From NCBI GenBank assembly GCA_016125275.1, contig WGMB01000005.1, positions 5,001 through 69,000 on the forward strand: a stretch of 64,000 nt of DNA. The letters run 5' to 3'. Origin of the DNA: Acidobacteriota bacterium (GTDB lineage Bacteria > Acidobacteriota > Terriglobia > Bryobacterales > UBA6623). The position numbers and the translations under genes are program-made. Below the pieces are notes generated by a model. The model had not been told where the DNA came from, did not search any database, and saw nothing but the letters and a program-made list of their open reading frames with translations. Each line of letters starts with the position of its first letter. Position 1 is the first letter of the stretch. Shown here piece after piece: positions 5,760 to 20,330 of this stretch.

Positions 5760-7040
5760 TTAGGCCAACAGAAACTCCGTCTGCTGACTCGCCGCCCGCG
5801 CCGCCGCCTCGGCGGCCTTGTAGCCGCTACGCACCGCCCCCTCCATCGTCGCCGGCCAGCCGGTATCGGTCCAGTCGCCGGCCAGGAACACGTTCGGAAT
5901 CTTCGTCACCGCTCCCGGCCGGCTCGCTTCCAGCCCCGGTTTGACCGAATACGTCGCCCGCACTTCCTTGATCACGTGGGACCGCACCAACCGCGCCTTC
6001 GCCGCCTGTGGGAAAAACTCCCGCAAGTCGCTGCAGGCCCGTTCGACAATCTCCGCCTGACTCAGCGGCAGCAGATCCCGCGAGGCGCTCACCACGCACT
6101 GCACGTAGCTCTCCCCGCGCCGAAACATCCATTGCATCGTGCGATCCAGCAGCGCTGCGTGGGGCAACTCCGTCACCGGCCGGTCAAACCACAGGTGCAC
6201 GCCGGTGATTGGCGAATGCTCGAACTCCCCAAGCTGCAGGTCCAGCTCCGGCAAGAGCCCCGCCGCCCGCTCGAATGGTACGGCGGCAATATAGAAGTCC
6301 GCCTCGCCCGACGCCGGGTCGATCCGCTCGATCCGCGAGCGCGTGTGCACCCGCAGATTGTTCCCCAACCGTCCATCGCCGGCGGCGTCATACAGCTCCG
6401 CCAGCGGCACGGCCGCCACGCCCATCTCGTAGCTCGTGCGCGTTCCCATCAGCCCGTCCGCAAATACCTGAAAGGCCGCCTTGGCCGACGAGCGATCGGG
6501 CTCCTCGTTGAGGGCGCTCACCAGAATCGGCCGCCAGAACCGCTCGTACGACCGCTCCGTCACCCGCCTCCCCAGCAACCAGTCCCCCATCGAGACCGTG
6601 TCGAGATCCGCGCGCTTCCTTTCGCGCTCCAGAGCTTGCAAAGTCGAAATCAGCGACCACTTGTCCGCCCAATCCAAGAAGCCGAAGCGCAGAAACGAGC
6701 CGGCCAGATGCAGCGGTTTGGGCCAGGGACCCCGCTCCAACCGATCGACCGCTCCCCCTGGCCGCACGAAGTACAGTGTGCTGTAGAAGTCGATCTTGCC
6801 TTCCACGCCGCAGCGCCGGTAGAAATCCAGCAAGTTGTCACAACAGCGCAGCAGCACATGCTGGCAATTGTCGATCCGCTCGGAGTCCGGCTCGGAGGGA
6901 TGCAGTGGATACGAAGTCGCCCGCCCGCCGAGAAATGGCTTGGCCTCGTGCAGGTCGACCTGCCAGCCGATCGACGCCAGCGCGGCCGCTGCGGACAGTC
7001 CGGCCAGACCGCCGCCCACGATCTGCACCCGGCGACTCAT
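5760..7040 (-). CDS. hpnE: Hydroxysqualene dehydroxylase HpnE
   Basis: FAD-dependent amine-oxidase-fold protein of 426 residues that reduces hydroxysqualene to squalene, the last step of the HpnCDE route. It starts with the dinucleotide-binding motif VQIVGGGLAGLSAA, has an E at the end of the second strand (DLHEAKPFLGGRA), and ends with the FAD-contacting NVFLAGDWTDTGWPATMEGA motif. It overlaps hpnD by 4 nt (ATGA, 7037-7040), the same order as in known hpnCDE operons, and is the last gene of the minus-strand hopanoid locus. Confidence 0.94.
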   Translation of the reverse strand: MSRRVQIVGGGLAGLSAAAALASIGWQVDLHEAKPFLGGRATSYPLHPSEPDSERIDNCQHVLLRCCDNLLDFYRRCGVEGKIDFYSTLYFVRPGGAVDRLERGPWPKPLHLAGSFLRFGFLDWADKWSLISTLQALERERKRADLDTVSMGDWLLGRRVTERSYERFWRPILVSALNEEPDRSSAKAAFQVFADGLMGTRTSYEMGVAAVPLAELYDAAGDGRLGNNLRVHTRSRIERIDPASGEADFYIAAVPFERAAGLLPELDLQLGEFEHSPITGVHLWFDRPVTELPHAALLDRTMQWMFRRGESYVQCVVSASRDLLPLSQAEIVERACSDLREFFPQAAKARLVRSHVIKEVRATYSVKPGLEASRPGAVTKIPNVFLAGDWTDTGWPATMEGAVRSGYKAAEAAARAASQQTEFLLA

Positions 7041-7933
7041 GGAGCCACAGGGAGGGGCAGGGCGCCGCCTAGCCAGCGCGCCCGGCCAGCCTTGAGCACG
7101 ATCCAGCTCTTCTCGAGCGCCGTCAGCCGAGCCCGCCGGGCGTAGACGTCATAGCCCAGCTCACGGATCCGCACCAGAACGCCGTGATAGATGGCGATCA
7201 TCGCCCACAACGAGGGCTGGCTCGTCGTCCGCACCAGCCCCAGCAGCGGCGCCGCTTCTTCGTAGTAGCGCTGCGCCCGCGCCCACTCGAACGCCATCAG
7301 CTCGTCGAACCGTCCGCCCGGCCGTCCCTTCTCGCCGGCCTCCAGCAGCGCCTCACGGCTCAGCCCAAAGCGTTCCAGATCCTCTTCCGGCAAGTAGACG
7401 CGTCCCATGCCAGCGTCCTCGGGAATGTCCCGCAGGATGTTGGTGAGCTGGAAGCCGATGCCGCACTTCTCGGCCAGCTCCAGCGCCCGGGGATCGTCGA
7501 ACCCAAACACGTGGATGATCGTCAGTCCAACGACCGAGGCCACCCGGTAGCAATACTGGTAGAGCTCGTCGAACGAGCGATAGCGCTGCGGGTCCAGGTC
7601 GCTGCCCACGCCGTCGATCATGTCAAAGAAGTACTCGCTGGGGATCTTGTAGCGTTCGACCGTCGCCCGGAAGGCCGGCAGGATCGGATCGTCGCCCACG
7701 TCGCCGGCCAGCGCCCGCTCGAGCGCAGCCTTCCAGTCGCCCAGAGCCCGGCGGCGCGTCTCCACCGAGGGCGCCTCGTCGTCGCTGATGTCGTCGGAAT
7801 AGCGCATGAAGGCGTAGATGGCGCACATCGCGTCCTTCTGCGCCTGGGGAAGCAGCACGAAGGAGTAATAGAAGTTGCGCGCTCGGGCCTTCGCCACCCG
7901 ACGGCAGTGCTCAAAGCTCTCCTCGAGCGTCAT
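7037..7933 (-). CDS. hpnD: Presqualene diphosphate synthase HpnD
   Basis: A 298-residue trans-isoprenyl diphosphate synthase of the squalene/phytoene synthase fold. It condenses two farnesyl diphosphates to presqualene diphosphate. The aspartate-rich motif is YSDDISDDE near residue 46 and the second one is TNILRDIPEDAGMGRVYLP. It lies between hpnC and hpnE with 4-nt overlaps on both sides (7930-7933 and 7037-7040), so the three are surely one transcription and translation unit. Length matches the family. Confidence 0.94.
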   Translation of the reverse strand: MTLEESFEHCRRVAKARARNFYYSFVLLPQAQKDAMCAIYAFMRYSDDISDDEAPSVETRRRALGDWKAALERALAGDVGDDPILPAFRATVERYKIPSEYFFDMIDGVGSDLDPQRYRSFDELYQYCYRVASVVGLTIIHVFGFDDPRALELAEKCGIGFQLTNILRDIPEDAGMGRVYLPEEDLERFGLSREALLEAGEKGRPGGRFDELMAFEWARAQRYYEEAAPLLGLVRTTSQPSLWAMIAIYHGVLVRIRELGYDVYARRARLTALEKSWIVLKAGRARWLGGALPLPVAP

Positions 7934-8901
7934 TCCGCGGCCTCCGGACGGGGCGCCGCGCCGGAGGGGTTGCGACCCGCGAGCAGCCGCGAGGCCAATA
8001 CCCTCACCACCAGGCCCACCCTCTCCAGCTTGCCCACCTTGGGCCGCCGGCTGATCACGTCGTAGCCTTGCCGGCGGATCTTGTCGAGCACCGTTATCCC
8101 GCCTCGCCGAAACAGCTCGATGTCGATCGACAGCCTGCGATCCAGCAGGTCCGGCAGATCGGCGCCCGCTTCGAACAGCGCCAACGCCCGTTCGGTCAAA
8201 TCGCGGATCAACGCGCGCACCGGCTCGCCCGCCCGCCCGGCCTCGACGTCGCGCGCCAAAGCCCCGTAGTCATAGCCGTGAGCCGCCATCCGGTCCGCGG
8301 GCAGATACACGCGGTCCCGCTCCAGCAGATCCCGCCGCACGTCTTGCCAATGGTTCGCCAACTGCAGGGCCGTGCAGATCGAGTCCGACAGCGCCACGCG
8401 CCGTTCGTCGGAGTAGCCGCACAGGCCCAGCACCAAGCGCCCCACCGGGTTGGCCGAATACACGCAGTAGTCGAGCACTTCTTCGTACGTCTGGTAGCGG
8501 GTCTTGGTCTGATCCATCTCGAAAGCCTGGATCAGGCGCTCGAAAGGCTCCTCGGGCAGCCGCCGCCGGGCCACTGTTTCCTGCAGAGCGACGAACACGG
8601 GGTGTCGCGGCGGCCGCCCGCCGAACAGGCTCTCGAGCTCGCCGCGCCACCAGGCTAACGCCACCAGGCTCTTGCGCCGGTCGCCGAGCTCATCGCCCAG
8701 GTCGTCCGCCCAACGGCAGTAGGCGTAGACGTTGAAGAAGTCCTGGTGCAGGCTCTTCGGCAGCAAGAAGCTGACGACGTGAAAATTCTCGTAGTGCGCG
8801 CCGGAGAGCCAACGCGTATAGGCCCGCGCCTCGGTCGGGGACCAGGGCCGGCAATCCGCGCCATAACGATCGAGGAAGTCCTTGGGGAAGAGGAAGTCCA
8901 T
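7930..8901 (-). CDS. hpnC: Hydroxysqualene synthase HpnC
   Basis: A 323-residue squalene-synthase-fold enzyme converting presqualene diphosphate to hydroxysqualene. It has the first aspartate motif as YCRWADDLGDE and the second as LANHWQDVRRDLLERDRVYLP. The N-terminal HYENFHVVSFLLPK segment separates HpnC-type from HpnD-type sequences. The start lies 30 bp after the stop of the upstream zinc dehydrogenase and its stop overlaps hpnD, so it is read from the long hopanoid operon or from a promoter inside the dehydrogenase gene. Confidence 0.93.
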   Translation of the reverse strand: MDFLFPKDFLDRYGADCRPWSPTEARAYTRWLSGAHYENFHVVSFLLPKSLHQDFFNVYAYCRWADDLGDELGDRRKSLVALAWWRGELESLFGGRPPRHPVFVALQETVARRRLPEEPFERLIQAFEMDQTKTRYQTYEEVLDYCVYSANPVGRLVLGLCGYSDERRVALSDSICTALQLANHWQDVRRDLLERDRVYLPADRMAAHGYDYGALARDVEAGRAGEPVRALIRDLTERALALFEAGADLPDLLDRRLSIDIELFRRGGITVLDKIRRQGYDVISRRPKVGKLERVGLVVRVLASRLLAGRNPSGAAPRPEAAE

Positions 8902-8931: not shown

Positions 8932-9984
8932 CTAGTCGTCGTGCGGCAGGATCGCCGTCTTGAGATGGCCGTTGTGGCTCATCATGTGCTGGAAGACGCT
9001 GAGCAGATCCTTCAGCGGCGCCTCATTGATGACGAAGTCGCCCACCTGGATCTCGCCGCCGGCGATGATGTCCAGCGCCCGGCGAATGTGCCGCGGCGTG
9101 TGGTGGAAGCTCGCCTTCAGCGTCAGCTCGGAGTAGTGCAGCAACGACGTGTCCAGGCAAACCTGGGTGTCGCGCGGGCAGCCGCCGAAGAAGTTGACCA
9201 CGCCGCCCATCCGAGCCATTTCCACGGCCCCGCGCCAGGCGGCGGGCGAGCCCACGGCCTCGATCACGGCGTCCGAGCCGCGGCGGCCTTCGGTATGCGC
9301 CCGGACGGCCTCCACCGGCTCGCTGCCCGGCTCGGAGAGCACCAGCGCGGCCGCGCCCATGCTCTGCGCCCGGTCGAGCTGCTGCTGCCGGCGGCCCACG
9401 GCGATCACGCGCGCCCCGGCCAGGCTGGCCAGCCGCACGAACATCAGCCCGATCGGCCCCAGCCCGATCACCGTCACCGTGTCTCCCGGCCGAATGCCGG
9501 TGTCCTCGATGCCGTGCAGCACGCACGCCAGCGGCTCGGCCATCGCCGCGCCGCGGCCGTCCACGCCCTCGGGGATCACGTACGTGTTCTTCTCGACGAT
9601 GCGGCCCGGAATGCGCATGTACTGCGCGTAGGCCCCGTTGTTGAACAGCAGGTCCTCGCAGAGGTTCTCTTGCTCGCGGCGGCAGTAGAAGCAGTCGCCG
9701 CACGGAGCCGAGTTGGCCGCCACCACGCGCTGCCCCACGCGGAACCCCGAGACCTCTTCGCCCACCGCGACGATCTCGCCGGCGAGTTCATGTCCGAACA
9801 GAGCCGGCGGATCGATCATGCGCGCATGATGACCCCGGCGAAAGACTTTCAGGTCGGTCCCACAGGTCAGGGCTGCCTGTACCTTGACCAGCATGTCGTG
9901 CCGGCCGATTTCCGGCGTCGCTACTTGCTCTACGCGAAGGTCTTCCTTCCCGTAGAGCACAGCCGCCATCATGCGTTCAGTCAC
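8932..9984 (-). CDS. Zinc-dependent MDR alcohol dehydrogenase (first of a hopanoid-linked pair)
   Basis: A 350-residue medium-chain dehydrogenase/reductase. Catalytic zinc ligands are in LTCGTD and GHELAGE, structural zinc is held by four cysteines (C-x2-C-x2-C-x7-C in CGDCFYCRREQENLC), and the Rossmann motif is VIGLGPIGLM. It is closest in style to sorbitol/threonine dehydrogenases. Its start overlaps the end of the second dehydrogenase by 8 nt (9977-9984), so both are likely made in equal amounts, perhaps as a heteromer. Location between hpnG and hpnC argues for a hopanoid side-chain oxidation or reduction, but the substrate is not known. Confidence 0.88.
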   Translation of the reverse strand: MTERMMAAVLYGKEDLRVEQVATPEIGRHDMLVKVQAALTCGTDLKVFRRGHHARMIDPPALFGHELAGEIVAVGEEVSGFRVGQRVVAANSAPCGDCFYCRREQENLCEDLLFNNGAYAQYMRIPGRIVEKNTYVIPEGVDGRGAAMAEPLACVLHGIEDTGIRPGDTVTVIGLGPIGLMFVRLASLAGARVIAVGRRQQQLDRAQSMGAAALVLSEPGSEPVEAVRAHTEGRRGSDAVIEAVGSPAAWRGAVEMARMGGVVNFFGGCPRDTQVCLDTSLLHYSELTLKASFHHTPRHIRRALDIIAGGEIQVGDFVINEAPLKDLLSVFQHMMSHNGHLKTAILPHDD

Positions 9985-11077
9985 GGTCGCTTCCCTCTTG
10001 CGGACACACCAGAATTTTCAAGGAGCCCTCGCTGGGACGCCGAGCCAATTCCATGCCTCGCTGCAGCTCCGCCAGCGGCAGCCGGTGCGAGATCAGTTCC
10101 TCCACCGGAAAATCCTCCCGCCACACGGTCTCGGCCGATTGCCTCTGCAATTCCACCGAGGCGCTGTAAGAACCAAATATCATTCTCTCGCCTTTGCCCA
10201 CTCCGGCGCCATCCAAGGTGAATGATTCTTGGGGGGACGTCTGGGCGAAAAGCATCACCCGGCCGCCCGGCCGCGTCGCGGCTACGGCCTGCTCGACGAT
10301 GCCCGGAGCCGAAGCCGCCACAATGGCTACATCGGCGCCGCGCCCGTTCGTCCGCGCGCGCAGCTCGCGACCAAGGTCGAACGAGCTCGCGTCGAAGGCT
10401 TCCCTGGCGCCCAGGCGCATCGACTTCTCCAGCCTCAAGGGCATGATGTCCGTAGCATAGACGGTGGCTCCCGGCTTGTGCGCCAACAGCATGGTGAACA
10501 GCAGCCCGATCGGCCCCTGTCCCAGCACCACGACAGACTCCTCATCGTCCAAGGCGCATTTTTCGAGGCCTTTCAGACACGTATTGACCGGCTCCACGAA
10601 GGTGGCCTTCTCGAAGCTCATCCCGTCGGGGATCTTCTCCACGCCGCGCTCGACGATCCAGTCCATCACCCGCACGTACTCGGCGAAGCCGCCGCCGGCC
10701 GGCTCGAACCCCGCCGTCACGCCCACTTTCTTGTAGGTCTCGCACTGCGCGTAGGCGCGCCGGCGGCAGTAGAAACAATCCTGGCAGGGGATGTGATGAA
10801 AGACGCAGACCCGGTCGCCGGGAACGTACTTCGTCACCCCGTCGCCCACCGCCGCCACCACGCCGGCCGTCTCATGCCCGTAGATACGAGGCGGCGGCAG
10901 CAGATCGTGCTCGATCTTCTTGAGGTCCGTGTGGCAAATGCCGCAGGAAGCGACCCGGATCAGGATCTCGCCCGGTCCGATCGGCGGCGTCTGTACGCGC
11001 TCGACCTGCACCGTCTGGGCGCCGCGATACACCGCAGCGCGCATCGTCCCCTCGACCTGGTCGGAAGGGCCGCTCAT
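9977..11077 (-). CDS. Zinc-dependent MDR alcohol dehydrogenase (second of the pair)
   Basis: A 366-residue paralogue-like MDR enzyme. It has the catalytic zinc motif CGICHTD, GHETAGV, the four structural cysteines in CQDCFYCRRRAYAQC, and the nucleotide motif VLGQGPIGLL. I place the start at the ATG at 11077 because it overlaps the hpnG stop in ATGA (11074-11077); a start at 11104 would overlap hpnG by 31 nt. Both pair members keep all zinc ligands, so neither looks like an inactive partner. Role proposed from context only: reduction of an aldehyde or oxidation of an alcohol in the hopanoid side chain. Confidence 0.87.
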   Translation of the reverse strand: MSGPSDQVEGTMRAAVYRGAQTVQVERVQTPPIGPGEILIRVASCGICHTDLKKIEHDLLPPPRIYGHETAGVVAAVGDGVTKYVPGDRVCVFHHIPCQDCFYCRRRAYAQCETYKKVGVTAGFEPAGGGFAEYVRVMDWIVERGVEKIPDGMSFEKATFVEPVNTCLKGLEKCALDDEESVVVLGQGPIGLLFTMLLAHKPGATVYATDIMPLRLEKSMRLGAREAFDASSFDLGRELRARTNGRGADVAIVAASAPGIVEQAVAATRPGGRVMLFAQTSPQESFTLDGAGVGKGERMIFGSYSASVELQRQSAETVWREDFPVEELISHRLPLAELQRGMELARRPSEGSLKILVCPQEGSDRD

Positions 11078-11796
11078 TGGTTCGACTGAGGAAGAAACCG
11101 GCATTGCCGCAAATAATCAGCCAGAATTTCCGCTGCGCGCTCGCTCTGCTTCTTGAGGTCGAGCAAACGCCGCCAGCGGCTCAAGCTCAGCCCCGCTTGG
11201 CGCGCCACGCGCCACCCGGAGAACGTACCATCGGCTCGCCGCGCTTGATTGAAGTCGATCGCAAACTCCGTTTCAGCCGTGTCACTGACGACACGCACAC
11301 AATAAAAAGGCAGCCCCAACTCCAGCGCGCTCTGTGCGACCGCCGCGGCTTCCATATCGACTGCGTCCGCGCCCAAACCGTGCAGCCGGGCTTTTTCCAC
11401 CGCCGTCTGCGCTACTCGGTCGATCGTCACCAGAACTCCGCGCCGCGTCGAGCCGCCCACGCATTCCGGTAATCTTCCAGAATACTCCACTCGCGGGTCC
11501 AGCCGTAGGACGCGCTCGGCTACGAACGTGTCCGCCAGCTCCAACGCCGGCGCCAATCCGCCCACGAAGCCCGTCGAAACCACCGCGCTCACGTCGAACC
11601 GCCGCACCGCTTCCGCCACCGCGCGCTCGGCGTTCTCGCGGCCCGGCCCGTTCGCCGCCAGCAGCGCCGGACCCTCGGCCAGTTCCGCCCGAAAAGCCCA
11701 ACGCACCCCGGCTAACACGGGACGGCGCTCGGCGAAGCCGCCGAACTCCCGCCAGTCCGCCGCGACCACTAGCAGTAGCCGTTCGCGCGGAACCAT
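11074..11796 (-). CDS. hpnG: HpnG-type nucleosidase/phosphorylase (adenosylhopane nucleosidase)
   Basis: A roughly 240-residue protein of the MTA/SAH nucleosidase-phosphorylase fold. Seen are STGFVGGLAPALELAD, the VTIDRVAQTAVEK region and GADAVDMEAAAVAQ, the family substrate-binding motif with catalytic-type M-E-A. In hopanoid loci HpnG removes adenine from adenosylhopane to give ribosylhopane. The gene overlaps the end of hpnA (start 11796, hpnA stop at 11769) if this ATG is used; a GTG at 11769 overlapping the hpnA stop is the alternative. It is a divergent member, so the symbol rests partly on context. Confidence 0.8.
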   Translation of the reverse strand: MVPRERLLLVVAADWREFGGFAERRPVLAGVRWAFRAELAEGPALLAANGPGRENAERAVAEAVRRFDVSAVVSTGFVGGLAPALELADTFVAERVLRLDPRVEYSGRLPECVGGSTRRGVLVTIDRVAQTAVEKARLHGLGADAVDMEAAAVAQSALELGLPFYCVRVVSDTAETEFAIDFNQARRADGTFSGWRVARQAGLSLSRWRRLLDLKKQSERAAEILADYLRQCRFLPQSNQ

Positions 11797-12764
11797 GCCA
11801 CCGCCCTCTCCAGCGCGGCTTCCGGAGGGCCGGGCCGCCAATCCAACTCCCGCTCGGCCTTTTCCGAGCGGACGTACATCTTCTTGCGCGCCATGCGCAC
11901 GGCTTCCAGCGGCGCCCGCGGCTCGCGGCCCGTCAGCCCGGCTAGGACGGTCTCTCCCGCGCCGAACAGCCAAGCGACGACGTACGGAATCCGCACGCCG
12001 GGCGCCGGCCGGCCGGTGATCGTCGCCAAGGACTCCAAAATCTCCCGCAAGCTCATGTTGCGGCAACCCAGAATGTAGCGCTCTCCGGGTTCGCCCCGAT
12101 CGGCGGCCCGTAGATGGCCCTGCGCCACGTCCCGTACATCCACTAGATTGAGCCCCGTGTCCAGATATGCCGGCATCGCGCCGCGCAGAAAGTCGACGAT
12201 GATCTTGCCCGTCGGCGTCGGCTTCAGGTCGGCTTCTCCGACCGGCGCCGTCGGATTGACGATCACCACCGGCAGCCCGCGCCGCGCCGCGTCCAGGGCT
12301 TCCTTCTCGGCCAAAAACTTCGTGCGCTTGTAGGGCCCCGTCATGTCGGCCAGCGAGACCGGCGACGTCTCATCGCCTAGGGTCCCGTCGCCCACGATGC
12401 CGATTGCGCCCACCGTGCTGGTGTACACGACCTTCTCGACGCCCGCCCGCTCGCAGGCCTGCAGCAAATTGCGGGTGCCCTCGACGTTCGAGCGCTCGAG
12501 CTCCCGCGGATCGCGCGACCACAGGCGATAGTCGGCGGCCACGTGGTAAACCGTGGAGCAGCCCCGCACAGCGCTTTCGAGAGAGGATGGATCGCGCAGG
12601 TCGCCGAGGGCTTCCTCGAAGTCCAGCCCCGCCAGGCCGCGCCGGTCGCTCGAAGGCCTCAGGAGCAGTCGCAGCCGCTCGCCGCGGCCGGCCAGGGTCC
12701 GCGCCACATGGCCGCCGATGAAACCGGAAGCCCCGGTCACCAGCGTGAGCCCCGAACCGCTCAC
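11769..12764 (-). CDS. hpnA: Hopanoid-associated sugar epimerase/dehydratase HpnA
   Basis: A 331-residue extended short-chain dehydrogenase. It opens with the NAD-binding TGASGFIGGHVARTL, has the YHVAADYRLW segment characteristic of HpnA, an active-site YKRTK (Y-x3-K) after TSTVGAIG, and a C-terminal WRPGPPEAALERAVAWF. Family proteins recur in hopanoid clusters, but their biochemical step is not settled. The start is a GTG at 12764; no ATG lies nearby in frame. The gap to hpnH is 23 bp. Confidence 0.92.
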   Translation of the reverse strand: MSGSGLTLVTGASGFIGGHVARTLAGRGERLRLLLRPSSDRRGLAGLDFEEALGDLRDPSSLESAVRGCSTVYHVAADYRLWSRDPRELERSNVEGTRNLLQACERAGVEKVVYTSTVGAIGIVGDGTLGDETSPVSLADMTGPYKRTKFLAEKEALDAARRGLPVVIVNPTAPVGEADLKPTPTGKIIVDFLRGAMPAYLDTGLNLVDVRDVAQGHLRAADRGEPGERYILGCRNMSLREILESLATITGRPAPGVRIPYVVAWLFGAGETVLAGLTGREPRAPLEAVRMARKKMYVRSEKAERELDWRPGPPEAALERAVAWFRANGYC

Positions 12765-12787: not shown

Positions 12788-13924
12788 CTACCCCAAGGCC
12801 CAGGTGATCATCTTCAAGCTGTCAGCGAGGGTGGCGTTGACGCCCAACGCCGCCGACGGCTCGAAGCCGCAGTGCACCATGCAGTCGTTGCAACGGCGGT
12901 CGTTGCCGTGGCCGTACTTCTCCCACGGCGTCTCGCTCATCAGATCCTCGAAGCTTTCGTGGTGCGCGTCGGTGATCAGGTAGCAGGGGCCCTTCCATCC
13001 GCGCACGTTGTAGGTTGGGTTGCCCCAGGCCGTGCACGGCAGGTCCCGGTCGCCCTTGAGGAACTTCAGGTACGTCGGCGTCGAGTTGAGCTTGAAGCGC
13101 TTGAACAGCCGATCCACATCCCGGAACTTCTCATGGACCTCTTCCCGGGTCAGGAAGATCTCGGTCGCGTCCACCGCCGAGTAGGGATACGCCGGCGAGA
13201 GCATGTGCCCGTCGACGTCGAACTGTTCGAGATACTCGAACAGCCCCTCGATCTCCTTCATGTCGGTCTCGCGGTAGATCGTCGTGTTCGTGCAGACCAT
13301 GAAGCCGGCGGCCTTGGCCGCGCGAATGCCTTCGACGGCTTCCTCGAACACGCCCTCGCGCTCGACCGCCATGTCATGCGTCTCCTTCAGCCCGTCCAGG
13401 TGGACGTTGAAGAAGAAGCGCCGGTCGGGCTTGAACTCGCTCAGGCGCTTGGGGATGAACATCCCGTTGGTGCACAGGTAGATGTTCTTCTTGCGCTCCA
13501 GGATGCCCGCCGCCAGACCGCCGATTTCGGGATACATCAGCGGCTCGCCGCCGCAGATCGACACCACCGGCGCGCCGCACTCGTCCACCGCCGCCAGGCA
13601 ATCCTGCAGCGACAGCCGGTCCGTCATCGTGTCTTCGTACTCGCGAATGCGTCCGCAGCCCGTGCAGGTCAGGTTGCAGGCGTGCAACGGCTCGAGCATC
13701 AGCACCAGCGGAAACCGCTTCTTCAGGTACGGGTGCTGGTCCACGCCCATCGCCGCCGCGGCGCCCGGCCCCTCGCCCGCCGTCACCTGCGGACGCGTCT
13801 GCAGCACTTGCAGCGGATTGCGTCGCGCCGGATTCGGATCGCGCTGCCAAGCCGGGTTCGGCGCGATCTTGTTCTTGGTGATGTAGGCGCCCATGCGGGC
13901 GGTCATTTCGATGGGAAAGCGCAT
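12788..13924 (-). CDS. hpnH: Adenosyl-hopene transferase HpnH (radical SAM)
   Basis: HpnH joins a 5'-deoxyadenosyl group to hopene to form adenosylhopane, the first side-chain step. The 378-residue protein has the radical-SAM cluster motif C83-x3-C87-x2-C90 (HACNLTCTGC), a GGEPL motif, and C-terminal cysteines (CNDCMVHCGFEP) as in the family. It is unusual near the N-terminus: between MGAYITKNKI and KRFPLVLMLEPL, which are usually close together, lies a proline- and alanine-rich insert of about 48 residues. The gene is 17 bp downstream of the cyclase gene. Confidence 0.94.
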   Translation of the reverse strand: MRFPIEMTARMGAYITKNKIAPNPAWQRDPNPARRNPLQVLQTRPQVTAGEGPGAAAAMGVDQHPYLKKRFPLVLMLEPLHACNLTCTGCGRIREYEDTMTDRLSLQDCLAAVDECGAPVVSICGGEPLMYPEIGGLAAGILERKKNIYLCTNGMFIPKRLSEFKPDRRFFFNVHLDGLKETHDMAVEREGVFEEAVEGIRAAKAAGFMVCTNTTIYRETDMKEIEGLFEYLEQFDVDGHMLSPAYPYSAVDATEIFLTREEVHEKFRDVDRLFKRFKLNSTPTYLKFLKGDRDLPCTAWGNPTYNVRGWKGPCYLITDAHHESFEDLMSETPWEKYGHGNDRRCNDCMVHCGFEPSAALGVNATLADSLKMITWALG

Positions 13925-13941: not shown

Positions 13942-15912
13942 CTAGTCGGTAAACCGGCCGCGCTGGTACTCTCCCAGCGCCATCAGCGGAAAGTAGAGCC
14001 GGTAGTAGTGGTAGCGCAGGTAGAACACGCTGGGGAAACCAGTCCCCGTAAACAGCTCCTCATCCCAGGAGCCGTCGTCGTTCTGCGTTTCGATCAGGTA
14101 GCGAATTCCGGACACCACGCTGCCGGTCTGGTAGTCTCCGGTGGCAAACAGCCCCAGCAGCGCCCAGGCGGTCTGCGAAGGCGTCGACGCGCCGTAGATC
14201 TTCTCCTGCGGATCGTCGTAGCTGCCGCAGGTCTCGCCCCAGCCGCCGTCGCTGTTCTGCACCGAGCGCAGCCACTCGCCGGCGCGGATGATGTAGGCCT
14301 CGTTGGGGTCCTCGCCCGCCGCCCGCAAGCCGCGCAGCGCGAAGCAGGTGCCGTAGATGTAGTTCACGCCCCAGCGGCCGTACCAACTGCCGTCGTCTTG
14401 CTGCACCCGTTCGAGATACCGCACACCGCGGGCGATGGCCTCGCGGTAGCGTCCGCGGCCCGGCCCGCACAGCGCCTCGATCGCGCGTCCGGTAATGTCC
14501 GGACAGCTCGGATCGAGCATCGCGTTGTGGTCGGCGAACGGGACGTGGGTCAGGATCTCGGCGTCGTTGTCGCGGTCGAACGCCGCCCAACCGCCATCCC
14601 GGCACTGCATCGAAGCCAGCCAGCGAATGGCCCGCTCCCGCGCCGCCGGCCAGGCGCGATGCTGCGAGGGCAGCGCCGTCTCAATGGCCAGCAGCACCTT
14701 CGCCGTGTCGTCGCAATCCGGGTAGAACTCGTTCTCGAACTCGAAGTACCAGCCGCCGGGCTCGACCCCGGGGTTCTTCACGATCCAGTCGCCCGGCTCG
14801 CGAACTTCCTTCGACAGCAACCATTCGCCGGCCCTCTCGAGCGCGCGGCGCACCTTGTCGCTCGGTTGCGGATGCGCAATGCCGAGGGCGAAGGAAGAGA
14901 TCGCCGTATCCCACACCGGAGAATGGCAAGGCTGGATCTTCAGCCGGTCACCCTTCTCGAGGATCAGCCCGTCGAAGCGCTCCAGCTCACGCTGCAGCAC
15001 CGGATGGTCGAATCCATAGCCGAGCTCGGTCAGCGCCATGATCGAGTTCATCATCGACGGGAAGATCGCCGCCAGCCCGTCGGACTTCTCGAAGCGCTCC
15101 ACCATCCACTGTTCGGCCGCCTCGATCGCGCGCTGCCGGAACCCGTTGAGCCCGATCCGTTCCCAGATCTTCAGCGACTTGTCGGCCCACAGGAAGAAGC
15201 TCTTCCAGCTCACCAGCTTCGGCCGCGCCGGCTCGATGCCTGAAAAGATCTCGTCGAGCCCGAAGCCGGCCGGGACCTGTCGAGAGGCCCGCTTGGCGCC
15301 CAGAATCGCCAACGGAGCCAGAATCGCCCGGCTCCATGATGAAATCTCGTAAATGTTGATCTTGCTGCCCGCCTCCAGCAGAAAGACCTCCGGCGGAATC
15401 GTCGGCGTCTTATCGCGGTCGAACAGCCCAAAGTAACTGAGGTAAATTTTCGTGTAGCTGTTGGCGGCTTCCACGCCTCCCAGCTCGAGCGTCCGTCGGC
15501 GAGCCTTCGCCAGGGCCGCCTCGGCGCCGGGCAGTTGCACCAGCTTCAGCGCCGTGTAGGCCTTCACACAGGCGGACACATTGTCCGGCCCGCCCTTGAA
15601 GATGTTCCAACCGCCCGTCGGCGTCTGGCGATCCAGCACGCTCCGGGCCGCCTTCAGGCAGCGCTCCCAGGTGGGCGGCCTCCAAGAGCCGTCCGGGCCC
15701 GGCGGATACAGCCAAAGCTGCAGCAGGATGTAATCGGATTCGAGAGTGGCGTCCGCCTCGAGCTCGCCGACCCAGTGCCCGGCTTCTTTCTGCAAGCCCA
15801 GCAAATGGTCGGTCGCCGCGTCGATCGCGCCCCGCACCTGCGAAAAACCCGTCGATAACGGCGCCGACAACCCGACTGCCGCAGCGTAGCTTCCACGTTC
15901 TGTGCTCGTCAT
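13942..15912 (-). CDS. shc: Squalene-hopene cyclase
   Basis: A 656-residue class II triterpene cyclase that folds squalene into hopene at the membrane. The protonating DXDD motif is D399-C-D-D402, and several QW-type repeats (for example QDDGSWYGRWG, QNSDGGWGE, QNDDGSWDE) are visible in the alpha/alpha barrels. Its start overlaps the ispH stop (ATGA, 15909-15912), linking isoprenoid supply directly to the cyclase. Length is normal for bacterial Shc (also called HpnF). Confidence 0.96.
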   Translation of the reverse strand: MTSTERGSYAAAVGLSAPLSTGFSQVRGAIDAATDHLLGLQKEAGHWVGELEADATLESDYILLQLWLYPPGPDGSWRPPTWERCLKAARSVLDRQTPTGGWNIFKGGPDNVSACVKAYTALKLVQLPGAEAALAKARRRTLELGGVEAANSYTKIYLSYFGLFDRDKTPTIPPEVFLLEAGSKINIYEISSWSRAILAPLAILGAKRASRQVPAGFGLDEIFSGIEPARPKLVSWKSFFLWADKSLKIWERIGLNGFRQRAIEAAEQWMVERFEKSDGLAAIFPSMMNSIMALTELGYGFDHPVLQRELERFDGLILEKGDRLKIQPCHSPVWDTAISSFALGIAHPQPSDKVRRALERAGEWLLSKEVREPGDWIVKNPGVEPGGWYFEFENEFYPDCDDTAKVLLAIETALPSQHRAWPAARERAIRWLASMQCRDGGWAAFDRDNDAEILTHVPFADHNAMLDPSCPDITGRAIEALCGPGRGRYREAIARGVRYLERVQQDDGSWYGRWGVNYIYGTCFALRGLRAAGEDPNEAYIIRAGEWLRSVQNSDGGWGETCGSYDDPQEKIYGASTPSQTAWALLGLFATGDYQTGSVVSGIRYLIETQNDDGSWDEELFTGTGFPSVFYLRYHYYRLYFPLMALGEYQRGRFTD

Positions 15913-16910
15913 ACGCTCGCAATCTGAGTCAGGCGCGCCTTCTGATGGGCCATCAGCTCCGACGGCAAGGGGAACTTGACGTTCTCCTCAATGACTTCCA
16001 CTTCTTCGATGCGGCCGAACTCAAAACGGTTCTTCAAAAAGTCCACCACGCGCTGGACCAGAACTTCCGGCGCCGACGCACCGGCCGTAATCACCACGGA
16101 CTTCACGCCCTCGAGCCATTCGTCGGCAATATCCCGCTCGTCGTCGATCAAGTAGCCGTTGACGCCGACGTTCCCGCCGACCTCGACCAGCCGCTTCGAA
16201 TTCGAGCTGTTCTGCGAGCCCACCACGAGCAACAAGTCGCAGGACGGCGCGCGCCGCTTGACCGCTTGCTGCCGGTTCTCCGTGGCATAGCAGATGTCCT
16301 GCGCCGGCGGTCCCTGGATCTGCGGGAAGCGGCGCTTGAGCACGGCGATGATCTCGCCGGCTTCGTCCAGGCTCAGCGTCGTCTGAGTCAGGTAGTAGAG
16401 GTTGTCGACGTCGGCCAGCTCGAGCTGCTCGGCTTCTTCCGCCGAAGCCACCACGATCGTCTGCTGCGGGGCCTCACCGCTGGTTCCGATGACTTCGTCG
16501 TGATCGCGATGGCCGATCAGCAGAATCGTGCCGCCCTTCTTGGCGAATTTGACCGCCTCCACATGGACCTTCGTCACCAGCGGACAGGTAGCGTCAATGA
16601 CCTTCAGCCCCCTCTGCAGAGCCTGCTGGCGGACCTCCGGGGCCACGCCGTGGGCGCTGTAGATCACGCGTCCGCCCGAGGGCACCTCGTCGAGCTCCTC
16701 CACGAAGATCGCGCCCCGTCCCGCCAAGTCTTCGACGACGTGCCGGTTGTGAACGATCTCCCGGCGCACGTAGATCGGCGGGCCGTAGGCCTCCAGGGCC
16801 AGCTCGACGATGTCGATCGCGCGCACGACCCCGGCGCAGAACCCGCGCGGCTTGAGTAGATAGACTACCTTTTCGTCGGAACCGTGGGCTGCGGTCTGGG
16901 GGGAGCTCAT
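15909..16910 (-). CDS. ispH: 4-hydroxy-3-methylbut-2-enyl diphosphate reductase IspH
   Basis: The last enzyme of the MEP pathway, a [4Fe-4S] protein making IPP and DMAPP. The 333-residue protein shows the family segments GFCAGVVRAI (first Fe-S Cys), EIVHNRHVV, YSAHGVAP, DATCPLV (second Cys), HRDHDEV, QTTLS, DICYATENRQ (third Cys) and GSQNSSNS. The open frame runs to 17234, but the family N-terminus and an AGGA 5 nt upstream support the ATG at 16910. Its stop overlaps the cyclase start. A -10-like TATACT lies about 65 bp upstream of the start. Confidence 0.95.
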   Translation of the reverse strand: MSSPQTAAHGSDEKVVYLLKPRGFCAGVVRAIDIVELALEAYGPPIYVRREIVHNRHVVEDLAGRGAIFVEELDEVPSGGRVIYSAHGVAPEVRQQALQRGLKVIDATCPLVTKVHVEAVKFAKKGGTILLIGHRDHDEVIGTSGEAPQQTIVVASAEEAEQLELADVDNLYYLTQTTLSLDEAGEIIAVLKRRFPQIQGPPAQDICYATENRQQAVKRRAPSCDLLLVVGSQNSSNSKRLVEVGGNVGVNGYLIDDERDIADEWLEGVKSVVITAGASAPEVLVQRVVDFLKNRFEFGRIEEVEVIEENVKFPLPSELMAHQKARLTQIASV

Positions 16911-16974
16911 AGGTCCTGCGTTCTCAGCTCCCCGCCACGACCACCACAGACGGGGAAAAGACCTGAGACTTTCG

Positions 16975-16980
16975 AGTATA
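16975..16980 (-). promoter_or_regulatory. Candidate -10 box upstream of ispH
   Basis: In the 77-bp gap between the end of hpnI and the ispH start the minus strand reads TTGTTATACTCG, with a perfect-looking TATACT. No good -35 hexamer sits 17 bp upstream (it would lie inside hpnI), so this is only a candidate internal promoter. The gap is one of the largest inside the hopanoid locus. Confidence 0.35.
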
Positions 16981-16987
16981 ACAAGCC

Positions 16988-18121
16988 TCAGCGGGCCTCT
17001 CCGGCGATCCTGCCGGCTGCGTCCAGGCGAAGGCGGCGCCCTCTCCAATTGACGTTTCGGCTGGCGAAGCTGGCGAGCCAAACCGCTGCAGCCCACAGCT
17101 CGGCCGGCGCCGCCCGCCACCCCACGGCCGCCCCGGTTCGCGACGCCGTCGACGCGCTGGCGGCGTAGCGCCCCAGCAGGCAGCCCGCGGCCATCCACGC
17201 CGGCCCGCCGGAGGCCAACAGCAGCAGGCTCCACAGCACGCCGAACGTCACCGCGAAGCCAGCGTGTCCGCCCGGTCGCGACGCCCGGATTGTCCGCGAC
17301 CAGCGCACGTGCCGCCGCCAGACCTCGCCCCAGCCCGCGTCGCCGGAAATGGTCTCCACGACCTGTCCTGACAGGCGGATCGGCCTTCCCAAGGCCGCGA
17401 TGCGCACCCCCAACTGGTAGTCGTCCGCCAGGTACGGCCGGATGGCCGAAAAGCCCCCGATGCGCTCCAGGTCGCGGCGTCGAAACAGCATCGCCGCCCC
17501 CAGCGCGAAGCTCATTCCGGCCAGATAGGCGCCGATCAGGGCTTGCCCCGAAAAGTCCGCCGAAATCCAGGCCGCATCGAGTCTCGATGCTTCGGTCGTG
17601 CCCGGCCGCGCGCGGTACAACGCGGTCACCATGCCGACTTCGTCACTCAATTCGCCCGCCATGCCTCGCAGCGTGTGCGGTTCCAAACGAATGTCGGCGT
17701 CGTCGACCAAAAAAACATCGTGGTGGGCCGCGGCGGACAGCTTTTCGAGGATCGCGACCTTGGCGTTGCCGTCGCCGGCCGGCCCGCAAACGAGCGCGCG
17801 AATCGCAGCCGCCGGAAACTCCTGGCGCAACTGTTCGATCACACTCAGCGCCGGATCCTCCGCGTCGGCCACGCCGAAGACCAGCTCGAACGTCGGGTAG
17901 TCGAGCCGGGCGTGGGAGCGGAGGTTGTCGAGCAGTTGCGCGTCGGCCCCGCGAATCGGTTTGAGGATGGAGACCGCGGGCAGGGGGGATGGATCGAGCG
18001 CCCTTCTTCGCCGGACATCGACATGGAACCGGATGCCCGCCGCCACTACCGCCGCATAGTAGCCCGACGCCGCCAACGTCAGCGCGCCAAACAACCAGAC
18101 GGCGGGCGAAGCGGCGCTCAC
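16988..18121 (-). CDS. hpnI: Hopanoid glycosyltransferase HpnI
   Basis: A 377-residue GT2/ceramide-glucosyltransferase-like membrane enzyme; HpnI adds an N-acetylglucosamine-type sugar to bacteriohopanetetrol. Seen are an N-terminal membrane helix (LFGALTLAASGYYAAVV), SILKPIRGAD, the metal/sugar motif DDAD at 140-143, a DD at 233-234, the R-x2-RW motif (RHVRW, 270-274) and C-terminal membrane helices. The start is a GTG at 18121, four bases after the stop of the small EamA gene; upstream codons in frame are shadow sequence. The deacetylase HpnK, which normally acts next, is not in this window. Confidence 0.88.
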   Translation of the reverse strand: MSAASPAVWLFGALTLAASGYYAAVVAAGIRFHVDVRRRRALDPSPLPAVSILKPIRGADAQLLDNLRSHARLDYPTFELVFGVADAEDPALSVIEQLRQEFPAAAIRALVCGPAGDGNAKVAILEKLSAAAHHDVFLVDDADIRLEPHTLRGMAGELSDEVGMVTALYRARPGTTEASRLDAAWISADFSGQALIGAYLAGMSFALGAAMLFRRRDLERIGGFSAIRPYLADDYQLGVRIAALGRPIRLSGQVVETISGDAGWGEVWRRHVRWSRTIRASRPGGHAGFAVTFGVLWSLLLLASGGPAWMAAGCLLGRYAASASTASRTGAAVGWRAAPAELWAAAVWLASFASRNVNWRGRRLRLDAAGRIAGEAR

Positions 18122-18125
18122 GGCC

Positions 18126-18488
18126 TTATCCGCCGACCAGGCCGACTCCCACCACCACCAGCGCCGCGCCGGCCCAGCGCTGCCAGCCGATGCGCTCGCC
18201 CAGAACGATCGCCGCCAACGCGGTCTCCACCACATACCCGGCCGCCGTCGCCGGCGCGGCGAAGCTCACCTCGGCCACCGACACCAACGCCATGAAGCCG
18301 AAGAACGACACCGTGTATCCGATCAGAGACAGTCCCAGCAACGGGCTTCGCGCCACCCGCGCGGCGAGCCGCTGGAAACCCGCCCCCGAAAAATCATCCA
18401 CTTCGCCCAGCCGACGCATCCCGGCGGCCTTCAGCAAATCGCCGAAGACCGTTCCCAGCACCACCAGAGCCAGCAGGAACCACTTCAT
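18126..18488 (-). CDS. Small four-helix EamA/SMR-like membrane protein, B subunit of a pair
   Basis: A 120-residue protein made almost entirely of four hydrophobic helices, ending with the EamA/ArnE-like signature LGERIGWQRWAGAALVVVGVGLVG. Half-size proteins of this type work as dimers; ArnE/ArnF flip undecaprenyl-phosphate aminoarabinose, and others export small cations. Its start overlaps the stop of the partner gene (ATGA, 18485-18488). Sitting between hpnJ and hpnI, the pair could move a hopanoid or its sugar donor across the inner membrane. That is inference from context. Confidence 0.8.
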   Translation of the reverse strand: MKWFLLALVVLGTVFGDLLKAAGMRRLGEVDDFSGAGFQRLAARVARSPLLGLSLIGYTVSFFGFMALVSVAEVSFAAPATAAGYVVETALAAIVLGERIGWQRWAGAALVVVGVGLVGG

Positions 18489-18884: not shown

Positions 18885-20330
18885 CTACGCCGCGCGCTTG
18901 TCGCGGATGTACTTCTTGCGCTTGGTGCGCAGCGCCAGGAACTCCCGCGCTTCCTTGTAGAGCCGCTGGCGCTCTCGGCCGTCGAAGATCGCCTTGCGCA
19001 TGATCCGCCAGGCGGCCTTGGGCCGGAAGTAGTACTCGTCGTAGAAGCGCTCGACCCACTCCATCATCTCGGCCTGGTCCAGGTCCGTGTAGCTGATGTT
19101 GGGGAGCTGATGGCCGGTCTCGTCGGTCATCCGGTCGATCGCCACCAGGCTCTGGTTGCCCTTGACGAAGTCGTAGAACTCCGTGCCGGGGTAGGGATGC
19201 GCCACCGAAACCTGGATCGTCTCGGTATCGAGCCGCTTGGCGAAATCGATCGACCGCCTGATGGAGTCGCGGGTCTCGCCCGGCAGCCCCACGATGAAGT
19301 CGCCGTGGATCACCAAGCCGGCCTTGTGCGCGTCGGCGGTGAACTGGATCGCCCGCTCGATCGTGGCGCCCTTCTTGATGTTCTTCAGGATCTGCGGGTC
19401 GCCCGACTCGTAGCCCACGATCAGCAGGCGGCAGCCGGCGTCCTTCATCGCCTTCAGCGTCTCGTAGTCCACGTTCACGCGCGACGTGCAGGACCAAGTG
19501 AAGTTCAGCGGCTCCAGCTTCTTGCACAGCTCCAGCACCCGCGACTTGCGGATGTTGAAGGTGTCGTCGTCGAAGAAGATCTCTTGCAGGCCGGGGAAGT
19601 TCTCCAGCGTGTACTTGACCTCGCCGGCGACGTCGTCGGCCGAGCGGGTCCGCCAGCGATGCCCCGAAAGCGTTTGGGGCCACAGGCAGAAGGTGCACAG
19701 CGCCGGACAGCCGCGTTCCGTGTAGAACGACAGATACGGCTGCTTGAGGAACGGGACGTTGTAGCGGCTGATGTCCAGGTCCCGCTTGTAAACTTTCGTC
19801 ACCCAGGGCAGCGCGTCGAGATCCTCGATCTGCGGCGCCTCCGGATTGTGATGCACGGCCCCGTTTCCGTTGCGAAAGCTCACGCTGGGCAGCTCGCTCA
19901 GCGGCTTGCCGTTCGCAAAGTCCACGACTTGGTAGTCGAACTCCTTGCGCACGATGAAGTCGATCGCCGGGCTCGCCTCCAGGCTCTCGTCCGGCAGAGC
20001 CGTCACGTGCGGGCCCACGAAGCAGATCTTGAGCTCCGGATTGGTCTCCTTCATCGCCTCGGCCAGCCGCACGTCGTTGTCGAAGCCAGGCGTCGACGTG
20101 AACAGCACCAAGAACTCGAAGTCCTTGGCCATGTTGATCGTCTCTTGCGGCGATACGTGATGCGGCGGCGCATCCACCACCTTCGAATCGGGCAGCATGC
20201 CGGCCGGATAGCACAGCCAGATCGGGTACCAATAGGACTCGATCTCGCGCGTGGCGGGCCACCGGGAGCTCGCGCCGCCATCAAAACCTTCGAACGAGGG
20301 AGGATTGAGGAAAAGTGTTCTACGAGGCAT
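18885..20330 (-). CDS. hpnJ: Hopanoid radical SAM protein HpnJ (cyclitol ether formation)
   Basis: A 481-residue B12-binding-type radical SAM protein. The N-terminal third (from RTLFLNPPSFEG to about residue 150) is the Rossmann-like cobalamin-binding region, followed by the cluster motif CPALCTFC (C-x3-C-x2-C) and a TIM-barrel core (FFDDDTFN, IVGYESGDP, GDFIVGLPGET). HpnJ is needed to contract the glucosamine of glucosaminyl-BHT into the cyclitol ether. It is the first hopanoid gene of the locus, 51 bp downstream of the TlpA-type gene. Confidence 0.92.
   Translation of the reverse strand: MPRRTLFLNPPSFEGFDGGASSRWPATREIESYWYPIWLCYPAGMLPDSKVVDAPPHHVSPQETINMAKDFEFLVLFTSTPGFDNDVRLAEAMKETNPELKICFVGPHVTALPDESLEASPAIDFIVRKEFDYQVVDFANGKPLSELPSVSFRNGNGAVHHNPEAPQIEDLDALPWVTKVYKRDLDISRYNVPFLKQPYLSFYTERGCPALCTFCLWPQTLSGHRWRTRSADDVAGEVKYTLENFPGLQEIFFDDDTFNIRKSRVLELCKKLEPLNFTWSCTSRVNVDYETLKAMKDAGCRLLIVGYESGDPQILKNIKKGATIERAIQFTADAHKAGLVIHGDFIVGLPGETRDSIRRSIDFAKRLDTETIQVSVAHPYPGTEFYDFVKGNQSLVAIDRMTDETGHQLPNISYTDLDQAEMMEWVERFYDEYYFRPKAAWRIMRKAIFDGRERQRLYKEAREFLALRTKRKKYIRDKRAA

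Follow-up and report, generated by a model that had tools for sequence, protein, structure and literature searches.

A conserved pair of zinc-dependent dehydrogenase genes within the hopanoid gene clusters of Acidobacteriota as a candidate for side-chain redox chemistry

Analysis of a 64,000-nucleotide stretch of a 7.55 Mb Acidobacteriota genome (Bryobacterales, UBA6623; assembly GCA_016125275.1, contig WGMB01000005.1, positions 5,001 to 69,000; hereafter the window) revealed two adjacent genes, designated ADHB and ADHA, that encode zinc-dependent dehydrogenases of the medium-chain dehydrogenase/reductase (MDR) type and lie amongst hopanoid biosynthesis (hpn) genes. In this lineage the pair is part of the hopanoid operon, and both genes are fair candidates for redox chemistry on the side chain of the lipid. 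Bacteriohopanetetrol (BHT) is the parent of a main class of bacterial biomarker lipids, and according to the available text of PMC12583986 (2025) no enzyme has been established for its formation from ribosylhopane, in agreement with the initial annotation of the window, which had described this reductase as unassigned. A conserved, intact and operon-embedded pair offers a concrete two-gene test in culturable acidobacteria.

Searches of 199 Acidobacteriota genomes retrieved ADHB in 29 (at least 334 bits, the next match scoring 219) and ADHA in 30 (at least 386.9 bits, the next match scoring 284.4), with hpnH over its model cut-off in 50. Both ADHB and hpnH were found in 28 genomes, ADHB only in one (G113, 93% complete), hpnH only in 22 and neither in 148 (Fisher p = 2e-19, shared ancestry ignored); this value overstates independence, because the ADHB genomes fall in six families and 18 of the 29 in a single one. 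All 29 also had hpnA over its cut-off and a match to shc, which in G188 was cut short and below cut-off. Since shc without hpnH occurred in only one of the 199 genomes (G113), the sample has no power to separate C30 from C35 roles. The HpnG cut-off was reached by none of the 199, hence hpnG calls in the phylum rest on weaker matches and on position.

Gene order was compared in 80 loci fetched from genomes of the phylum and scored with the window's own proteins. ADHB adjoined hpnA and/or hpnG in 28 of the 29 ADHB genomes (the exception being G066), a placement that exceeds chance, and of the 28 ADHA loci fetched, all but G066 and G132 had the gene beside hpnC or hpnD (26 of 28). Where the cluster is split, as in genus g5, ADHB remains behind hpnG and ADHA lies before hpnC.

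The cofactor type of each protein was read from the residue ending the second Rossmann strand (beta2), where an acidic residue generally indicates NAD and a non-acidic residue accompanied by a basic one NADP. It was found that all 29 ADHB proteins of the phylum carry an acidic residue at this position, and that 27 of the 28 fetched acidobacterial ADHA proteins carry a non-acidic residue followed by R, K or N (exception L051); the ADHA site thus looks NADP-type and that of ADHB NAD-type. The same split was seen in cyanobacterial, Omnitrophota and Verrucomicrobiota members, and failed in the distant pairs of family f48 and genome G078, both members of which are acidic. Reduction of ribosylhopane by Methylobacterium cell-free extract reportedly requires NADPH. 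Of the two proteins, ADHA is the better candidate for an NADPH-linked step, although it is ADHB whose gene is linked to hpnG. A comparable pairing exists in the sorbitol (polyol) pathway, in which an NADPH-linked reductase is coupled with an NAD+-linked polyol dehydrogenase; the likeness is one of analogy only, as the reductase of that pathway is an aldo-keto reductase.

From these observations we infer a substrate, a direction and a division of labour as follows. HpnH and HpnG make ribosylhopane, the C35 aldehyde of its open-chain form would be reduced by ADHA with NADPH to yield BHT, and the same polyol would be the substrate of ADHB, which would serve as a second reductase or else oxidise a side-chain alcohol with NAD+. 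The pair would represent a lineage-specific solution and not a universal enzyme. We tentatively propose that ADHA and ADHB form an old polyol/sugar-type dehydrogenase module that was recruited to the C5 side chain, with ADHA perhaps serving as a lineage-specific NADPH-dependent ribosylhopane reductase, a reading that we regard as possible though short of probable.

Both genes are predicted to encode full-length zinc-containing MDR alcohol dehydrogenases with both zinc sites intact. The Pfam domains ADH_N and ADH_zinc_N (cut-offs 23.5 and 31.8 bits) were matched at 91.6 and 77.6 bits in ADHA and at 90.5 and 64.6 bits in ADHB. Zinc-site residues were present and conserved in ADHA (C41, H65, E66, C95, C98, C101, C109 and E150, with GxGxxG at 174) and in ADHB (C45/C48, H68, E69, C98, C101, C104, C112 and E162, with GxGxxG at 186), at aligned positions that we take to be the catalytic and structural zinc ligands. 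AlphaFold2 models, built on alignments of 14 (ADHA) and 15 (ADHB) sequences, had mean predicted local distance difference test (pLDDT) scores of 81.9 and 89.9, respectively, with the ADHA stretches 52-58 and 93-116 (structural-zinc cysteines) falling below 50. Foldseek searches returned the alcohol/polyol dehydrogenase fold, at query-normalised template modelling scores of 0.77 to 0.86 among the 50 matches listed per protein, and it is the predicted fold alone that these models contribute.

Neither protein reached an NCBIfam cut-off. Membership was rejected for L-threonine 3-dehydrogenase (Tdh, TIGR00692; ADHA 161.0 and ADHB 136.3 bits against a cut-off of 458.35), for TIGR03366 (HpnZ_proposed, a phosphonate-associated alcohol dehydrogenase despite its name; 107.7 and 103.6 bits against 328.1) and for IolM and idonate dehydrogenase, the scores for which were far under the cut-offs. 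Because the scores lie far under every NCBIfam cut-off, no known substrate can be transferred to the pair. In fold and zinc-site positions, ADHA and ADHB resemble sorbitol dehydrogenase, the NADP(H) ketose reductase 1e3j, L-idonate 5-dehydrogenase and Tdh, but differ from such polyol/sugar MDR dehydrogenases in sequence, identities being at most 32% in the fold alignments listed. Enzymes of this group rank with the best-matching solved structures in both sequence and fold comparisons; the sequence relatives include 1e3j and polyol dehydrogenases, none of them close.

The distribution of the pair beyond the phylum was investigated first by an hpnH alignment scan of named genomes, in which the best 80 of 582 loci were considered. 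Amongst these, the two best matches to the hpnH of the window were contigs titled Terriglobia and Bryobacterales (73% and 67% identity), and ADHB lay downstream of hpnH in 16 loci, of which 15 bore acidobacterial titles and one the title Acidimicrobiia; a match of 84 bits to the ADHB model in L121 was left out of this count. From the 60 loci whose titles were not plainly acidobacterial, plus two doubtful ones, 40 hpnH genomes were chosen for whole-genome searches. Close relatives of both genes (ADHB at least 292 bits, ADHA at least 305 bits) were present in seven: five cyanobacteria, one Omnitrophota, in which the pair adjoins hpnC and hpnE, and one Verrucomicrobiota. The hpn genes of two contigs of the scan, L093 (titled Acidimicrobiia) and L096 (titled Nevskia soli), resemble those of Bryobacterales contigs, and these are possibly mislabelled or contaminated assemblies.

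In a sample of 175 cyanobacterial genomes, with hpnH called at E <= 1e-80, ADHB was found in 31, all of which also encoded ADHA, and was associated with hpnH (p = 1e-7, uncorrected for relatedness). Pseudomonadota were searched through a plasmid collection, in which identities to ADHB were at most 34.1% among the best 15 of 22 matches, and identities to ADHA reached 47.5% once and otherwise at most 38.0% among the best 15 of 345. The 47.5% relative, from a Rhodococcus opacus plasmid, sits with genes for an FGGY carbohydrate kinase, a DeoR/GlpR-type regulator and a class II aldolase, a context that points to polyol or sugar substrates, although by eye its cofactor position is an aspartate. A conserved partner gene was sought outside the Acidobacteriota and rejected, the neighbours tested being Pho4 transporters, glycosyltransferases, a Band 7 protein, ilvC, murF and others.

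In the phylogeny of 173 MDR proteins, the A and the B proteins each formed a clade (support 0.999 and 0.983, respectively), although several deeper nodes among the hopanoid-linked members were weak. Most loci in which an A and a B gene were both detected had them as direct neighbours, and their distances were correlated across 75 pairs (Mantel r 0.851, with 0 of 2000 permutations higher), which in part reflects shared species history. Because the two clades hold largely the same lineages and the distances correlate, the genes look like an old module occurring in several settings and recruited into the hpn clusters of Acidobacteriota and of at least one Omnitrophota genome.

These same profiles reject a universal ribosylhopane reductase. 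With hpnH as a proxy for BHT production, the presence of the pair in producers and its absence from non-producers was not what was found: 22 of the 50 acidobacterial hpnH genomes and 26 of the 47 cyanobacterial ones have no ADHB, and 10 of the 31 cyanobacterial ADHB genomes lack hpnH (21 have it). Of the 40 hpnH genomes chosen from the scan, 33 have a close relative of neither gene. Three genomes of genus g74, which we take to be Chloracidobacterium, encode hpnH without ADHB at E <= 1e-50 and with an ADHA relative of only 44% identity, and Chloracidobacterium thermophilum produces BHT according to the available part of PMC5462960 (2017). The initial proposal of the pair as the missing reductase itself was not supported, and the refuting outcome named with it, a pair common in genomes lacking hpnG/hpnH, was in part observed. 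The tie to the side-chain genes is supported within the phylum, where all but one of the ADHB genomes have hpnH. The distribution suggests that ribosylhopane is converted to BHT by non-orthologous enzymes in different lineages, in which case a single missing gene is not to be expected.

Recruitment to the side chain, as proposed here, has to be weighed against these gaps in the profiles and against several further observations. The gap within the phylum is tempered in that 11 of the 22 hpnH genomes without ADHB do encode a distantly related, adjacent B-A pair, although none of these pairs adjoined hpn genes in the region retrieved (one contig being of only 3.7 kb). HpnA follows hpnH more closely than ADHB and ADHA do, exceeding its cut-off in 48 of the 50 hpnH genomes (49 of the 199 overall). 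At the level of gene order, ADHA, the NADPH candidate, sits with the squalene genes in the split clusters; the pair of G066 follows a gene for proline dehydrogenase, at a distance from the hpn genes; and seven f29 genomes, G113 among them, have the pair and hpnA with only partial HpnG-model matches elsewhere, which qualifies the otherwise consistent linkage to hpnA and hpnG. Additionally, 78 cyanobacterial genomes of 1.6-2.3 Mb, a size suggestive of picocyanobacteria, have ADHA with neither ADHB nor hpnH at the thresholds used. In nine of ten such loci read (L185-L194), a diverged B-type gene precedes ADHA in varying neighbourhoods, suggesting that the B-A pair of small hpnH-free cyanobacteria has some function.

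The last of these observations bears on the alternative that comes closest to the proposed recruitment, namely that a general polyol/sugar dehydrogenase module is no more than a passenger in the operon, or contributes to the supply of isoprenoids or to making squalene, and has no side-chain role. This would accommodate the pairs of cyanobacteria without hpnH and the retention of ADHA with hpnC in split clusters; in the cyanobacterial loci read, no neighbour matched an hpn model above 60 bits except a B12/radical SAM (S-adenosylmethionine) frame (122 bits, L191). Against it, ADHB stays beside hpnA and/or hpnG in all but one of the ADHB genomes of the phylum, and HpnC, HpnD and HpnE are reported to make squalene without further enzymes. 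We consider this explanation somewhat doubtful.

Two other explanations are each rather unlikely. The first is a redox relay, in which ADHB would oxidise a side-chain alcohol with NAD+ and ADHA would re-reduce it with NADPH, so that an oxo-hopanoid would result or, through inversion of a stereocentre, an isomer of BHT. It is consistent with the contrasting cofactor-site types retained both by hopanoid-linked members and by others, except in f48 and G078, and with the co-inheritance of the mostly adjacent genes, but cofactor use is here deduced from one position, and the available part of PMC5462960, whose method degrades the side chain, mentions no oxo-bacteriohopanepolyol or unusual isomer for its strains. 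The second, that HpnA is the ribosylhopane reductase and the dehydrogenases have an accessory job, was put forward for HpnA in PMC5462960, as far as its available text goes, and agrees with the closer tracking of hpnH by HpnA in the phylum. Among the best 80 of 582 scan loci, many of cyanobacterial or Geobacter type and one from Omnitrophota likewise had hpnA no more than approximately 5 kb from hpnH, yet 13 of the 14 planctomycete-titled hpnH loci, some on short contigs, had no HpnA match, and the available text of PMC12583986 reports hpnA absent from six of 48 alphaproteobacterial hpnH genomes.

Least probable, and in our view improbable, is a relay in which ADHB would use NAD+ to oxidise one of the ribose hydroxyls in adenosyl- or ribosylhopane, enabling adenine elimination or stereocentre inversion before reduction by ADHA with NADPH; it would explain why the pair is kept without a recognisable hpnG in seven genomes. 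If this is true, the two enzymes would generate stereoisomers of BHT or take the place of HpnG.

Parts of this arrangement have been described previously. In the available text of PMC5462960, acidobacterial hopanoid clusters A and C contain ug2, of approximately 350 amino acids (aa), situated before hpnC as is ADHA and often annotated as a Zn-binding alcohol dehydrogenase, and ug1, behind hpnG in the place of ADHB. By position, ug2 would correspond to ADHA and ug1 probably to ADHB, although that text leaves the product of ug1 unstated, does not pair the two or discuss cofactors, and proposes neither as the reductase. It also reports tetrafunctionalised bacteriohopanepolyols as the sole or main products of cultured SD1 and SD3 strains, with pentafunctionalised ones reaching 45% in a few. 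Near alphaproteobacterial clusters, no obvious candidates other than hpnA, hpnB, hpnL and hpnM are named in the available text of PMC12583986. The HpnO route described there draws on the same intermediate, ribosylhopane, to form aminobacteriohopanetriol, but by amination through an aminotransferase of an unrelated protein family. Neither a reductase assignment nor a hopanoid-cluster alcohol dehydrogenase other than ug2 was found in the literature searched, which lies mostly outside subscription journals and includes the available text of these two papers and of PMC6373157, PMC10301674, PMC5358736, PMC8537080 and PMC4676935.

In the window, the genes form a minus-strand run from 20330 to 5760 in the order hpnJ, hpnI-like, ispH, shc, hpnH, hpnA, hpnG, ADHB, ADHA, hpnC, hpnD and hpnE (Table 1). 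The junction of hpnG and ADHB is an ATGA overlap (hpnG stop TGA at 11074-11076, ADHB start ATG at 11075-11077), and ADHB and ADHA overlap by 8 nt (9977-9984); the intact dehydrogenases, their coupling and their coordinates as first annotated were exact when read from the sequence. ADHA is separated from hpnC by 30 nt, and the hpnC/hpnD and hpnD/hpnE junctions are again ATGA overlaps. The likely start of hpnG is the ATG at 11796, behind GGAGAGG, and not the TTG of a longer frame at 12066, whilst ispH probably begins further in than its frame, the conserved part starting near residue 124.

Table 1. Genes of the hopanoid run in the window and the evidence for their assignment.
Gene	Product or assignment	Position	Strand	Evidence
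hpnJ	B12/radical SAM protein	18885..20330	-	TIGR03471 759.2 bits, cut-off 577.6
hpnI-like	Glycosyltransferase	16988..18235	-	TIGR03472 287.8 bits, below cut-off 310
ispH (lytB)		15909..17234	-	TIGR00216 322.3 bits, cut-off 187.85; Pfam LYTB
shc	Squalene-hopene cyclase	13942..15912	-	TIGR01507 642.5 bits, cut-off 431.1
hpnH	Radical SAM adenosylhopane synthase	12788..13924	-	TIGR03470 425.3 bits, cut-off 225.05
hpnA	Hopanoid-associated 'sugar epimerase', alternative candidate for the reductase	11769..12764	-	TIGR03466 465.5 bits, cut-off 367.65
hpnG	Hopanoid-associated phosphorylase (adenosylhopane to ribosylhopane)	11074..11796	-	TIGR03468 best match 124.8 bits, below cut-off 187.1
ADHB	Zinc MDR dehydrogenase, NAD-type cofactor site (TD after beta2)	9977..11077	-	Open reading frame, 366 aa, ATG start; Pfam; alignment; AlphaFold2
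ADHA	Zinc MDR dehydrogenase, NADP-type cofactor site (VGRR after beta2)	8932..9984	-	Open reading frame, 350 aa, GTG start behind AGAGGG; Pfam; alignment; AlphaFold2
hpnC		7930..8901	-	TIGR03464 318.1 bits, cut-off 250.45; ATG at 8901
hpnD		7037..7933	-	TIGR03465 264.5 bits, just below cut-off 278.6
hpnE		5760..7040	-	TIGR03467 457.2 bits, cut-off 283.05

There were several instances of variant loci within the phylum. Clusters with the order hpnA-ADHB-ADHA-hpnD and without hpnG were seen in L050-L055 and L034 of family f29, those of L050-L055 also being without an hpnC match, and hpnH was on a separate contig in five of the six f29 genomes having it. In genome G007, transposase-like frames recognised by eye (L010:8452-10676) lie shortly after hpnH, where relatives carry hpnA-hpnG-ADHB-ADHA; none of these four genes was found in G007 at the thresholds used, which looks like loss of the block. 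Several of the f48 loci (L074-L081) have a frame of approximately 440 aa after the distant pair, that of L076 encoding a chorismate mutase/prephenate dehydratase. In genome G000, several ADH_N matches fall within open frames of approximately 2100 to 4300 aa (contig C15, 57718-126883), perhaps a polyketide synthase cluster.
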